The translations under genes and the position numbers were made by a program. The notes under the pieces were generated by a model. That model ran no database searches. It saw nothing but the letters and a program-made list of their open reading frames with translations, and was not told where the DNA came from. A stretch of 64,000 nt of DNA, from NCBI RefSeq assembly GCF_000266945.1, contig NC_018025.1:2542001-2606000 (forward strand), written 5' to 3'. The stretch comes from Desulfomonile tiedjei DSM 6799. GTDB lineage: Bacteria; Desulfobacterota; Desulfomonilia; Desulfomonilales; Desulfomonilaceae. Shown here piece after piece: positions 56,859-62,250 of the stretch; the first letter of the stretch is position 1; every line of letters begins with the position of its first letter.

Positions 56859-57437
56859 TCATTCTTTAGGTTCAGATGGCTCCTTGGCGACGCTTTTCCT
56901 CCTTTTTCGATCCTTGAGTTGGCTGTGCTCATAGACTTTCAGTGCGAAATCCTGAAATAGGTTTTCGCAAGTCTTTATTTTTTCTGCGGCTGCCTCGCGC
57001 AAGGGTGCTTCCACGATGTCCCTTTTTTCTACCTTTTTCAGCCACAGTTTTAGCTTTTCAAGCTCCTCTTCGTTTTCTTCGACTTCGGCAAAAATGAAAT
57101 TCTGCCTGCTTATCTCAAATTCGATTTCTTTCGCGTAATCTTCGCATTTACCTATGATCTCACGGTATTCTTCGTCTCTCGATTCTACGAATTCCCTGTT
57201 GATCCGATCTTCCTGGTCTCTGTTCAAGACTTTGCCGTCGATGAGCAGACCTTCACCCTTCCAGTTCTCAATATCCTCTATGAGCTTTTTGACTTCATTG
57301 ACGCGCTCGCTCGAATAAGGAAGAACCCAGACGGATTGGTAATTGACCGCTCCGAGCTTCTTGATCTGCCTCCAAACGGAGACCCTTGCTCGTGACGGGC
57401 GTGACGGAAGTGTATATGAAAAAAAGAGCCATCTCAT
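56859..57437 (-). CDS. ChrB N-terminal-domain-like protein
   Basis: 192 residues. The opening RWLFFSYTLPSRPSRARVSVWRQIKKLGAVNYQ and SVWVLPYSSE matches the ChrB N-terminal domain found in chromate-responsive regulators. The remainder is highly charged and helical (EEVEENEEELEKLKLWLKKVEKR), probably coiled-coil, with a basic tail. There is no Shine-Dalgarno: the ATG overlaps a GTAAC/GTTAC palindrome, so a leaderless, autoregulated transcript is likely. It lies 60 bases after the MFS gene, whose promoter has the same palindromes. It is probably the regulator of the pair. Confidence 0.75.
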   Translation of the reverse strand: MRWLFFSYTLPSRPSRARVSVWRQIKKLGAVNYQSVWVLPYSSERVNEVKKLIEDIENWKGEGLLIDGKVLNRDQEDRINREFVESRDEEYREIIGKCEDYAKEIEFEISRQNFIFAEVEENEEELEKLKLWLKKVEKRDIVEAPLREAAAEKIKTCENLFQDFALKVYEHSQLKDRKRRKSVAKEPSEPKE

Positions 57438-57499: not shown

Positions 57500-58714
57500 T
57501 CAGTGTCTGAATTCCTTTTTAGCCGTCAGGAGGATTGGAACAGAAATGAGTTGCGATGCCATTGAGAACACAATGAGGCTGCTCACGGAAAAATCGTACA
57601 GGATGCCCATGAGCGCACTTCCCAGAAACCAGAACAATCCGTAGCCTGTATTAAACACCCCAAAAGCAAAGCCGAGCCTGTTCCTTGGAACCATGCCCGC
57701 GATGGCAGCCCTCATTACGGACTCTTGGGCTCCCATGCCTACGCCCCACAAAGCCATTCCTGCGAGAGCCCAATAGAATCCACCCATGAATACCAGAGGA
57801 GCAAAAAGCGATGACAGCAGGATGGCTACGACCATCACCGAAAAGCCCAGCCTGTCAAAGAGCCGCCCCAAAAGTAGGGCAGTCAAGGCATCAACACCCA
57901 TTGCCACAGCATAAAAGATCGGAATCCAGTAATCCGGAACTGCGGCTACTTTCTTGAAGTGATAGGCTATCAGAGGAAAATCAGCGAATCCGGCTGCAAC
58001 GCAGCCGATGGCAATCACGTAAAACCAGTACGTCTTGGGGAAGCCATTGCTCTGCAACTTGACCGATGCCGGTTCGAGATCCTGGGGATTGGGGTACAGC
58101 TTATATGCGGTGAAAAGCACGCTTAATGCAATAAGAGCCGGGATCAGCAATAACCCGAATCCGGACTGATAGTCGCCTCTGAAATGAAAAACAGCAGCCA
58201 CGACCAACGGGCCGAGAATGGCTCCTATCTGGTCCAAAGCCTCATGCAGACCGAATCCCCATCCCCTCCCAATCCGATCGGAAGCGCAGGAAAGCATCAC
58301 ATCACGGGCTGGCGTTCTGACTGCTTTGCCCATTCTTTCCGCGATCATCAGAACCGCAGCTAGTTCCCAGTGGCCAGCCAGCGCCAAAAGAGGCACTGCC
58401 AACAGGTTCATGCCATAGCCCAGGAACACGATAGTCCAATACTGTCGTGTTTTGTCAGCAAAGTAGCCTGACGCAAGTCGCAACGCATATCCGATGAGTT
58501 CGCCAAATCCAGCTACTACCCCAACAACTGTTGCGCTTGCTCCTAACATGGCCAGGAACGGTCCAGTTATACTTCGAGCGCCTTCATACGTGAAATCCGA
58601 AAACAGACTGACGACCCCGATCAGGACCACGAACTTCGTTGCGCTCATCGGTGAAATGTCGCAGGATTGTCTTGATGCATGTAATTGGCTTTTCATGAGT
58701 TTCTGATCGCCCAT
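57500..58714 (-). CDS. MFS efflux-type transporter
   Basis: 404 residues, about 12 membrane segments. N-terminal FSDFTYEGARSITGPFLAMLGAS and LASGYFADKTRQYW, then ERMGKAVRTPARDVMLS and GFGLHEALDQIGAILGPL, a pattern typical of a subgroup of MFS proteins seen beside ChrB-like genes. AGGAGGG seven bases before the ATG. Its promoter (TTGACA/TAACAT) carries two GTAAC-N4-GTTAC palindromes, one over the -10 box. Export of a toxic anion or metal compound is plausible but not shown. Confidence 0.82.
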   Translation of the reverse strand: MGDQKLMKSQLHASRQSCDISPMSATKFVVLIGVVSLFSDFTYEGARSITGPFLAMLGASATVVGVVAGFGELIGYALRLASGYFADKTRQYWTIVFLGYGMNLLAVPLLALAGHWELAAVLMIAERMGKAVRTPARDVMLSCASDRIGRGWGFGLHEALDQIGAILGPLVVAAVFHFRGDYQSGFGLLLIPALIALSVLFTAYKLYPNPQDLEPASVKLQSNGFPKTYWFYVIAIGCVAAGFADFPLIAYHFKKVAAVPDYWIPIFYAVAMGVDALTALLLGRLFDRLGFSVMVVAILLSSLFAPLVFMGGFYWALAGMALWGVGMGAQESVMRAAIAGMVPRNRLGFAFGVFNTGYGLFWFLGSALMGILYDFSVSSLIVFSMASQLISVPILLTAKKEFRH

Positions 58715-58898: not shown

Positions 58899-59321
58899 TC
58901 ACTTCACGATCAGGACAGAGCACGGGGAAAACCTTGCAATATTTCGAGAAGTCCCTCCCCATATACGTTCGAAAATGCGGCTATGGCCGGTGAAGCCCAC
59001 CACGACAAGATCGAAACCTTGCGATTTGCAGAACTCCACGATCCTATCGACCGCATGACCGGCGACAACATGCCGCTTTATCATCGTTTTTCCAGCCTTA
59101 GCCAATTCCCGGGCTTCTTCGTTGAGCTGTTCGAAATAGGCATCCTTCTGGAGTTTAACCTCCTCGAACTCACCGACTGTGGCAACGTATTTCGGGAGGT
59201 CGACCTCTACGGATATCGAATGGAGTTCCGCCTCGAAAGCGGAAGCCAGTTCGATAGCCTTCTTCAATGCAATACGAGAGCCTTCAGATCCATCAAATGC
59301 AACCAATATTTTCTTAAACAT
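58899..59321 (-). CDS. universal stress protein (UspA family)
   Basis: 140 residues from ATG at 59321 (AGAGG five bases upstream); GTG two codons earlier is possible. KKILVAFDGSEGSRIALKKA at the N-terminus and the ATP-binding signature GFTGHSRIFERIWGGTSRNI near the end show a nucleotide-binding UspA domain. It ends the gene string that begins with the fluoride riboswitch, 27 bases after the antiporter. UspA genes are among the known fluoride-riboswitch targets, so it is probably part of the fluoride response. Confidence 0.88.
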   Translation of the reverse strand: MFKKILVAFDGSEGSRIALKKAIELASAFEAELHSISVEVDLPKYVATVGEFEEVKLQKDAYFEQLNEEARELAKAGKTMIKRHVVAGHAVDRIVEFCKSQGFDLVVVGFTGHSRIFERIWGGTSRNIARFSPCSVLIVK

Positions 59322-59347
59322 CTTCACCTCTTAGCCAATGCCCGAAT

Positions 59348-60493
59348 TTATTTCTGCCAATCTCCATTTACTTCATGATGCTCGGGTTCGAAGAACCATT
59401 GAGCAATGAGTGTGGGGATTACTGCGCTCCCGATTACCACGGTAACTAAGACCGTATACTGTTCCTGCGTTATGATGCCTCGGGTGTAACCGAACAGGGC
59501 GGAAATACTGCCAAATGTGAGACCTGTACTCATCAGCAATGTTGTGTACATGCCTATCTTCCGGGAAAAACGAAATGCTGAGGTCAGAGGAAAAACTCCG
59601 ATAAATTTCGCAGACACCTTAACCACTAGCAAGACAATAATCAAACCGATGCTGGTTAGAATGGCCGGAAGGGATACTATTGTCCCGGCTTTGAGGAAGT
59701 AGAAGGGCGTGAGCAGAGCGAACGTTGCAGTGCGAAGATGCCGCACCATTTCCTTGTGATCCTTAAATAATCCGGCCACTACCAGGCCCAGCAGATATGC
59801 AGGCAAGACTGCCTCGCTATTTGCGTGTGTAGCAAGCCAGCCCAAACCAAACAGCAGAAAGAAGAGGAGCTTGATTTCCGGCTCGCTTACATGACCGCTG
59901 AATACCCTAAAAAACCACCTTGTGAACCATGGCGTGACGATGAGGACTATCGTGGTCACAACGGCAAATATGATTAACCACAAATCGTAATGCGCAAACA
60001 GAATACCCAGCGCAACAACGGTCCCAAGATCGGTGACGAAACACGCCGCCAGGATAAGCTTGCCCAATTCTTCCTTGTTCAAGCCTGTTTCCACCATTAC
60101 TGCATAAACCACTGCAACAGACGTTGTTGACAGTGCTATGCCGCAAATCATTGAAGCTTCGAGGGTCCATTTAGCCACATACAATGCGTAAGCCATTGCA
60201 CCCAAGAATGGCAGCAAGAAACTGAGAAAACCTATGCTGATGCTCTCTTTGCCGTACTTGCGAAGAACATCGGGTTCGATTTCTGCTCCAGCCAAAAAAG
60301 TGAGGAGAATCGCTCCGAAACCCGCCAGAAAACTTATCCATTCTGTTTTGGGGTCCAGCCCCAGAAAGTTTCCGCCTATGACGCCGACACAAATTTCAAC
60401 GAGAGCTACTGAAATGGCGGTTCGCATCGAGATGACGCTTGCCAGGAGCGCCAGTCCGATCCAAACCGTGGCTATATACCAAGTGTTGTCCAT
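59348..60493 (-). CDS. cation/proton antiporter (CPA2-like)
   Basis: 381 residues, 11-12 membrane segments. Features: FLAGAEIEPDVL, GIALSTTSVAVVYAVM, and the ion-site helix ACFVTDLGTVVALG (TD where NhaA-like antiporters have DD and KefB-types ND/QD). TPFYFLKAGTIV in the second half is typical of CPA2 antiporters. ACGGAGG precedes the ATG. It follows the GTPase/enolase chimera by about 55 bases under the fluoride riboswitch. A sodium or fluoride-linked ion homeostasis role is inferred; Na+/H+ antiporters are known riboswitch targets. Confidence 0.85.
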   Translation of the reverse strand: MDNTWYIATVWIGLALLASVISMRTAISVALVEICVGVIGGNFLGLDPKTEWISFLAGFGAILLTFLAGAEIEPDVLRKYGKESISIGFLSFLLPFLGAMAYALYVAKWTLEASMICGIALSTTSVAVVYAVMVETGLNKEELGKLILAACFVTDLGTVVALGILFAHYDLWLIIFAVVTTIVLIVTPWFTRWFFRVFSGHVSEPEIKLLFFLLFGLGWLATHANSEAVLPAYLLGLVVAGLFKDHKEMVRHLRTATFALLTPFYFLKAGTIVSLPAILTSIGLIIVLLVVKVSAKFIGVFPLTSAFRFSRKIGMYTTLLMSTGLTFGSISALFGYTRGIITQEQYTVLVTVVIGSAVIPTLIAQWFFEPEHHEVNGDWQK

Positions 60494-60548: not shown

Positions 60549-61883
<1,335 letters not shown>

Positions 61884-61921
61884 TCAGATCCTGCGACAAA
61901 ATCAAAGATTTCACGCCAAAT

Positions 61922-61945
61922 AAAAAACCCACCTTTCGGTGGGTT
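61922..61945 (-). terminator. intrinsic terminator of the fluoride riboswitch
   Basis: On the minus strand AACCCACC-GAAA-GGTGGGTT forms an 8-bp stem with a GAAA loop, followed by TTTTA. It sits between the aptamer and the first gene, as expected for transcription-attenuation control. Confidence 0.88.
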
Positions 61946-61959
61946 CCACTTATGCCGAT

Positions 61960-62032
61960 CTCCCACCGCACAATCTGTAGCGGTAGGAGTCATCAGCTCA
62001 TTACGAGCATTTTGGGGGGACTCCATCCCCGT
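61960..62032 (-). ncRNA. fluoride riboswitch (crcB motif)
   Basis: Minus-strand transcript: the aptamer begins GGGGAUGGAGUCCCC (62030-62016), continues with an A-rich joint and a small hairpin (UGCUC..GAGCU), and ends CUGAUGACUCCUAC (61996-61983). These are the conserved crcB elements, with GGAG/CUCC able to form the pseudoknot. Downstream GCGGUGGGAG (61970-61961) can pair with either the aptamer's CUCCUACCGC or the terminator's CCCACC strand. Ligand-bound aptamer would free GGUGGG to block the terminator, so fluoride turns expression on. It controls the GTPase/enolase chimera, antiporter and UspA genes. Confidence 0.93.
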
Positions 62033-62046
62033 CATCTGTATAATTT

Positions 62047-62075
62047 CTTGTAAAATTTTTTGCTGTGAAAGTCAA
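62047..62075 (-). promoter_or_regulatory. promoter of the fluoride-riboswitch operon
   Basis: Minus strand TTGACT (62075-62070), 17-base spacer, TACAAG (62052-62047). The start would fall near 62040, immediately before the aptamer. Confidence 0.6.
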
Positions 62076-62250
62076 GACGCTGCTGTGAGCTGTTTACAGA
62101 ATTTCCATGAATCTTCCTCATTATTGTCATCACAGATGCACAAACCGATGGTATGTTGAGCTCTGGGGGAGAAAGGCACTAGGCGGTTGTTTACGCCCTA
62201 GATCGGTGAAGAGACAGAGTGTAATCGAACAACGAGCTGGGGACTAAGCC

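Follow-up and report, generated by a model that had tools for sequence, protein, structure and literature searches.

Fluoride riboswitches are a standard model of cotranscriptional switching, and in the published mechanism one strand is shared between pseudoknot and terminator. The accepted platform is a terminator that directly overlaps the pseudoknot strand (PMC11077080), and a 2026 survey likewise has this direct overlap (PMC13273304). In the riboswitches of the B. cereus and Thermotoga petrophila type, the 3' strand of the aptamer forms part of the terminator stem, which gives two states (PMC11077080; PMC13273304). A description from 2010 had stated that terminators often overlap the motif (PMC2864571). 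The survey covers 1901 sequences with long extensions tested, and its covariation model for assay-validated sequences has post-aptamer lengths of 5-40 nt (PMC13273304).

Here, we analysed a riboswitch locus on the minus strand of a 64-kb stretch of the Desulfomonile tiedjei DSM 6799 genome, hereafter the window. Like the B. cereus and T. petrophila type, it has an aptamer, a pseudoknot strand as the switching element, an intrinsic terminator, and the expected ON logic. In the window, however, the signal appears to pass through an additional strand to a distal terminator, which lies clear of the aptamer. As the published platforms overlap the aptamer directly, the relay is a variant of a known riboswitch class, and this variant appears to be undescribed; literature searches joining fluoride riboswitch and antiterminator gave no such platform in titles and abstracts. 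The relay takes up about 53 nt of post-aptamer sequence, more than the 5-40 nt of the survey model. Relay leaders may be among the measured sequences of PMC13273304. As a compact natural ON switch working through a third strand, the window element lets two platforms be compared cleanly on the same aptamer, and mutants of the four strands are simple to design. SAM-I acts through P1 and is switched OFF by its ligand. Terminator/antiterminator platforms of the SAM-I type resemble that of the window riboswitch in that the antiterminator strand has two alternative partners, an aptamer strand and one arm of the terminator, whereas in the window riboswitch ligand binding would set the antiterminator strand free and switch transcription ON.

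The initial annotation had read a promoter, a crcB-type aptamer, and an intrinsic terminator, in this order, on the minus strand. The Rfam search of the window returned a single match, the fluoride (crcB) aptamer RF01734 at 62039-61977 (-), with a score of 56.1 bits (gathering score 34; E 7.1e-13 over 64 kb) along the full model (1-64). P1 (GGGG/CCCC), P3 (GCUC/GAGC), and the pseudoknot (GGAGU/ACUCC) are present. The model match confirms the segment as a genuine fluoride-riboswitch aptamer at the sequence level, and we infer that it binds fluoride. It sits in the 5' leader of antiporter, universal stress protein (Usp), and MFS genes in an operon order shared with relatives. The terminator was also recovered and is strong. 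It lies at 61947-61924 and consists of a 10-pair stem with a GAAA loop followed by T6; 61880-62200 yielded no other terminator, with 0.2 expected. For the promoter, the TTGACT -35 is present and common to related leaders at the same place, but the -10 is weak and an automatic scan favoured a different weak site. The features are listed in Table 1.

Table 1. Riboswitch features and downstream genes in the window (all coordinates refer to the window)
Feature	Position	Strand	Basis or remarks
Promoter (putative)	62047..62075	-	-35 TTGACT 62075-62070, 17-nt spacer, weak -10 TACAAG 62052-62047; read by eye
Fluoride (crcB) aptamer RF01734	61977..62039	-	56.1 bits, E 7.1e-13
Pseudoknot 5' strand GGAGU (P1 loop)	62020..62024	-	Partner ACUCC 61990-61986; sequence and alignment conservation
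Strand A, aptamer 3' strand CUCCUACCGC	61980..61989	-	Helix conservation and folding
Strand B, GCGGUGGGAG, acting as anti-aptamer or antiterminator	61960..61969	-	A:B and B:C pairing over 12 leaders
Strand C, AACCCACC, terminator 5' arm	61938..61945	-	Conservation, terminator call, complementarity test
Strand D, GGUGGGUU 61933-61926, then U tract 61927-61922	61922..61933	-	C:D pairing over 12 leaders
Mosaic ORF, 433 aa	60549..61850	-	One frame matching Pfam Dynamin_N and Enolase_N; relatives have three separate genes
CPA2-type cation/proton antiporter	59348..60493	-	PF00999 9e-41, TIGR00932
Universal stress protein	58899..59327	-	PF00582
MFS transporter	57500..58714	-	PF07690; order shared with G005, G006, G008
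ChrB N-terminal domain protein	56859..57437	-	PF20229; order shared with G006, G008

The platform consists of four strands. In folding calculations, A:B forms 10 pairs (-17.8 kcal/mol), B:C forms 7 pairs (CGGUGGG with CCCACCG, -10.6 kcal/mol), and C:D forms 8 pairs (-13.5 kcal/mol). B:C is incompatible with both A:B and C:D. A:B and C:D can coexist, which corresponds to the OFF state, and the pseudoknot GGAGU/ACUCC can coexist with B:C in the ON state. The central claim of the initial annotation, that B pairs with either A or C, holds: the helices are conserved in relatives, and B:C exceeds the pairing of B with unrelated terminators (p 0.013 for the window leader alone; the controls are described below). 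Some details needed revision. B had been placed one nucleotide off (61970-61961 instead of 61969-61960), and the proposed GGUGGG:CCCACC pairing is present within a helix that is longer, at 7 bp. The three helices had been called mutually exclusive, which is true of B:C against the other two but not of A:B and C:D.

In the proposed mechanism, B would capture A in the absence of fluoride. With A:B formed, C would be free for D, and RNA polymerase would terminate at the U tract. When fluoride is present, A would be locked in the aptamer pseudoknot, B would stay free, and it would grab C as soon as C is made. D would then emerge too late for the terminator, as the polymerase would already be past.

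We folded the window transcript stepwise, imitating the ligand by blocking the pseudoknot strands and ignoring the pseudoknot energy. With A free, the probability was 1.0 for A:B and 0 for B:C. With A blocked, B:C reached 0.95-0.98 from 61936 to about 61930, until D was made. At full length, C:D was favoured at equilibrium (0.97-0.99) even with A blocked. As C:D wins at equilibrium even then, antitermination must be a kinetic trap, and as C:D dominates in both cases once D is made, the switch must act while the polymerase crosses the U tract. The trap itself we infer from the folding model. The annotated direction, ON with fluoride, survived this analysis, as B:C formed at 0.98 only with A blocked and not at all with A free. 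That fluoride prevents termination stands in a narrower form: the B:C antiterminator forms with A blocked, but the terminator displaces it at equilibrium, and the effect would be kinetic only. Overall, we consider it likely that the locus is a transcriptional riboswitch turned ON by fluoride, with a platform in which four strands form a relay, and that it drives a fluoride-resistance operon.

Conservation was assessed over 12 leaders, namely that of the window and 11 from seven Desulfomonilaceae members and the more distant genome G054. All four strands are kept in the 11 further leaders. Standard pairs occupy 92.5% (A:B), 94.0% (B:C), and 96.9% (C:D) of the cells, and 29-63% were paired in slid-helix controls. 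In G012a and G017a, the strands change together: A from UACC to UGCC, B from GGUGGG to GGCGGG, C from CCCACC to CCCGCC, and D from GGUGGG to GGCGGG. In G008, C has become CCUGCC and still pairs with GGUGGG via G-U pairs. C:D shows strong covariation, with 4 pairs changed on both sides and a score that 0 of 500 shuffles reach. For A:B it is good (2 of 500 shuffles), and for B:C, with one pair changed on both sides in family A5, it is modest (34 of 500). The modest value for B:C is partly explained by B and C each being tied to another partner. The leader G012b (L029) is a hybrid in which the A:B hairpin is followed by U6 directly behind B and a relay-type terminator lies downstream; it is possibly an evolutionary intermediate.

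Similar platforms occur in other lineages. We sorted 123 distinct leaders by script, using compact hairpins; they come from 80 dynamin-gene loci and the riboswitch loci of the phylum, and the sample is biased towards dynamin-linked switches. In 36 of the 123, which include some doubtful or Shine-Dalgarno types, the A:B hairpin stands directly before a T-rich tract. In another 25, A:B is combined with a separate downstream terminator, as in a relay. As a control, B was paired with 446 terminators from the same loci, away from aptamers. B:C beats these at p<=0.05 in 17 of the 25 relay leaders; the combined p is 1.6e-19, or 4e-13 with one Desulfomonilaceae leader. The own B:C pairing is -14.4 kcal/mol against -11.2 kcal/mol with C swapped among leaders, a difference reached in 0 of 5000 permutations. 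The records with relay leaders carry the labels Phycisphaerae, Anaerolineae, Clostridia, Bipolaricaulota, and several Desulfobacterota. In several of them, the terminator arm copies the aptamer strand, e.g., UCCUACCAGG in L097 and GCUCCUGCCA in L092. The window leader belongs with this group, as one of its strands can pair either with that of the aptamer or with the 5' arm of the terminator, and this pairing is conserved and exceeds chance. In sister-family leaders (L008, L010, L012, L016, L018, L019), the aptamer 3' strand can pair with a Shine-Dalgarno-like AGGAG before the start codon, which suggests translational control of dynamin.

The relatives carry, in order, the riboswitch, a dynamin-like GTPase of about 610-670 aa, a 243-260-aa gene, enolase, a 139-aa gene, the antiporter, Usp, MFS, and ChrB; not every genome has all of these genes. 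The two conserved proteins of 243-260 aa (L061 5812-6561 (-)) and 139 aa (L063 1633-2052 (-)) beside dynamin and enolase gave no Pfam match. In the window, the switch would drive the CPA2 antiporter, Usp, MFS, and ChrB-like genes, presumably as one transcript, and these would confer fluoride resistance. Enolase and Na+/H+ antiporters are reported fluoride-riboswitch partners (PMC11139923). As in the fluoride-resistance operons described there, the window has an antiporter behind the riboswitch, and its relatives have an enolase gene. The operon of the window family differs from them in being led by a dynamin-like GTPase, and the genome covered here has no Fluc or CLC match.

The gene directly behind the riboswitch, on which the initial annotation is silent, is a mosaic. 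Residues 1-308 are the GTPase part of a dynamin-like protein, residues 310-387 (60923-60690) are a fragment of the enolase N-domain, and residues 388-430 (60689-60561) are the later half of the 139-aa protein, with a frameshifted tail after them. By coordinates, about 4.2 kb in G011 correspond to 0.43 kb in the window. On the simplest account there were three deletions, of which the first two happened to stay in frame. We also weighed a functional gene fusion: the first two junctions are in frame, but the third break shifts the frame, enolase lacks its catalytic barrel, and for two deletions to be in frame the chance is 1 in 9, so that decay is preferred over fusion. Relaxed selection was not seen on the enolase fragment (dN 0.145-0.163 vs 0.128 between intact genes; dS is saturated). 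As the fragment looks constrained like intact genes, the deletions are probably recent, and the ORF is probably a recent deletion scar of three genes. It may also be an assembly error. In solved structures, the GTPase profile of the leading gene has BDLP (2J68) as its nearest match and IniA (6J72) among the next ones; unlike these, the window copy has the GTPase part only, fused to the enolase and third-gene fragments. The same genome holds an intact dynamin paralogue at C1:6196.2 kb. No aptamer is detectable in its leader, the TTGACT promoter remains, and its same-genus orthologue has a partial aptamer without most of P1 (the two leaders are covered by L070 1750-2230 and L069 180-560). On this comparison of loci, the window locus kept the switch and lost the gene, and the paralogue kept the gene and lost the switch.

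Other explanations of the platform were weighed against the relay. C:D could be an unrelated constitutive or polarity terminator which B matches by chance, with A:B regulating weakly or not at all. C:D is indeed thermodynamically dominant whether A is free or blocked, but the B:C complementarity is kept in the family, lies above that with unrelated terminators, and is leader-specific in the swap tests, which makes this reading very unlikely. A third reading, that we see here the relic of a switch in decay, is also very unlikely. The first gene downstream is broken, its 433-aa ORF being a deletion mosaic, and the aptamer is undetectable before the intact paralogue and only partial before the same-genus orthologue; the window aptamer, however, matches the model end to end with 56 bits, all platform strands are intact, and so are the antiporter, Usp, MFS, and ChrB frames, at 77-84% identity to their best relatives.

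A two-state platform in the B. cereus and T. petrophila style, in which the A:B hairpin itself terminates and displaces the pseudoknot and the distal hairpin is incidental, is very unlikely for the window. PMC11077080 and PMC13273304 describe no other architecture for transcriptional fluoride riboswitches, it occurs in the 36 script-sorted leaders given above with their doubtful or Shine-Dalgarno types, and the U6 directly behind B in the G012b hybrid fits it. The window has AUCGGC instead of a U tract behind B, and the separate C:D hairpin at 61947-61924 is the only terminator, so that the direct-overlap platform was rejected. A translational platform with Shine-Dalgarno sequestration was also rejected, as the ORF start at 61850 lies 110 nt downstream of B. 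We keep the four-strand relay as the preferred reading.

Beyond the window, dynamin-like genes accompany fluoride riboswitches widely. We picked 80 dynamin loci (L072-L151) by the dynamin gene alone, regardless of RNA; a fluoride aptamer lies within 400 nt upstream of dynamin in 61 of them and elsewhere in the surrounding DNA in 11 more. The loci with dynamin behind a riboswitch span many bacterial phyla and methanogenic archaea. Literature searches joining fluoride riboswitch and dynamin found nothing. Tentatively, and with slightly less than even confidence, we propose that relay platforms make up a second class of transcriptional fluoride riboswitches and are widespread. This class, in which the terminator arm copies the aptamer 3' strand, would have arisen more than once, have been missed by short post-aptamer alignments, and commonly govern a fluoride-inducible dynamin-like membrane GTPase so far unrecognised in fluoride defence.

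In the genome covered here (a 6,500,104-bp chromosome and a 27-kb second contig), a second RF01734 match lies at C1:869588-869519 (-), upstream of another CPA antiporter. One of the two riboswitches is thus directly before a CPA-type antiporter, and the other has an antiporter as the next intact gene. The genome gave no match to PF02537 (Fluc/CrcB) or PF00654 (CLC), whereas most control genomes did. D. tiedjei carries two fluoride riboswitches, and yet neither of the known families of fluoride exporters was detected in it. That riboswitch and dynamin are paired across phyla hints that the response to fluoride may include membrane remodelling.
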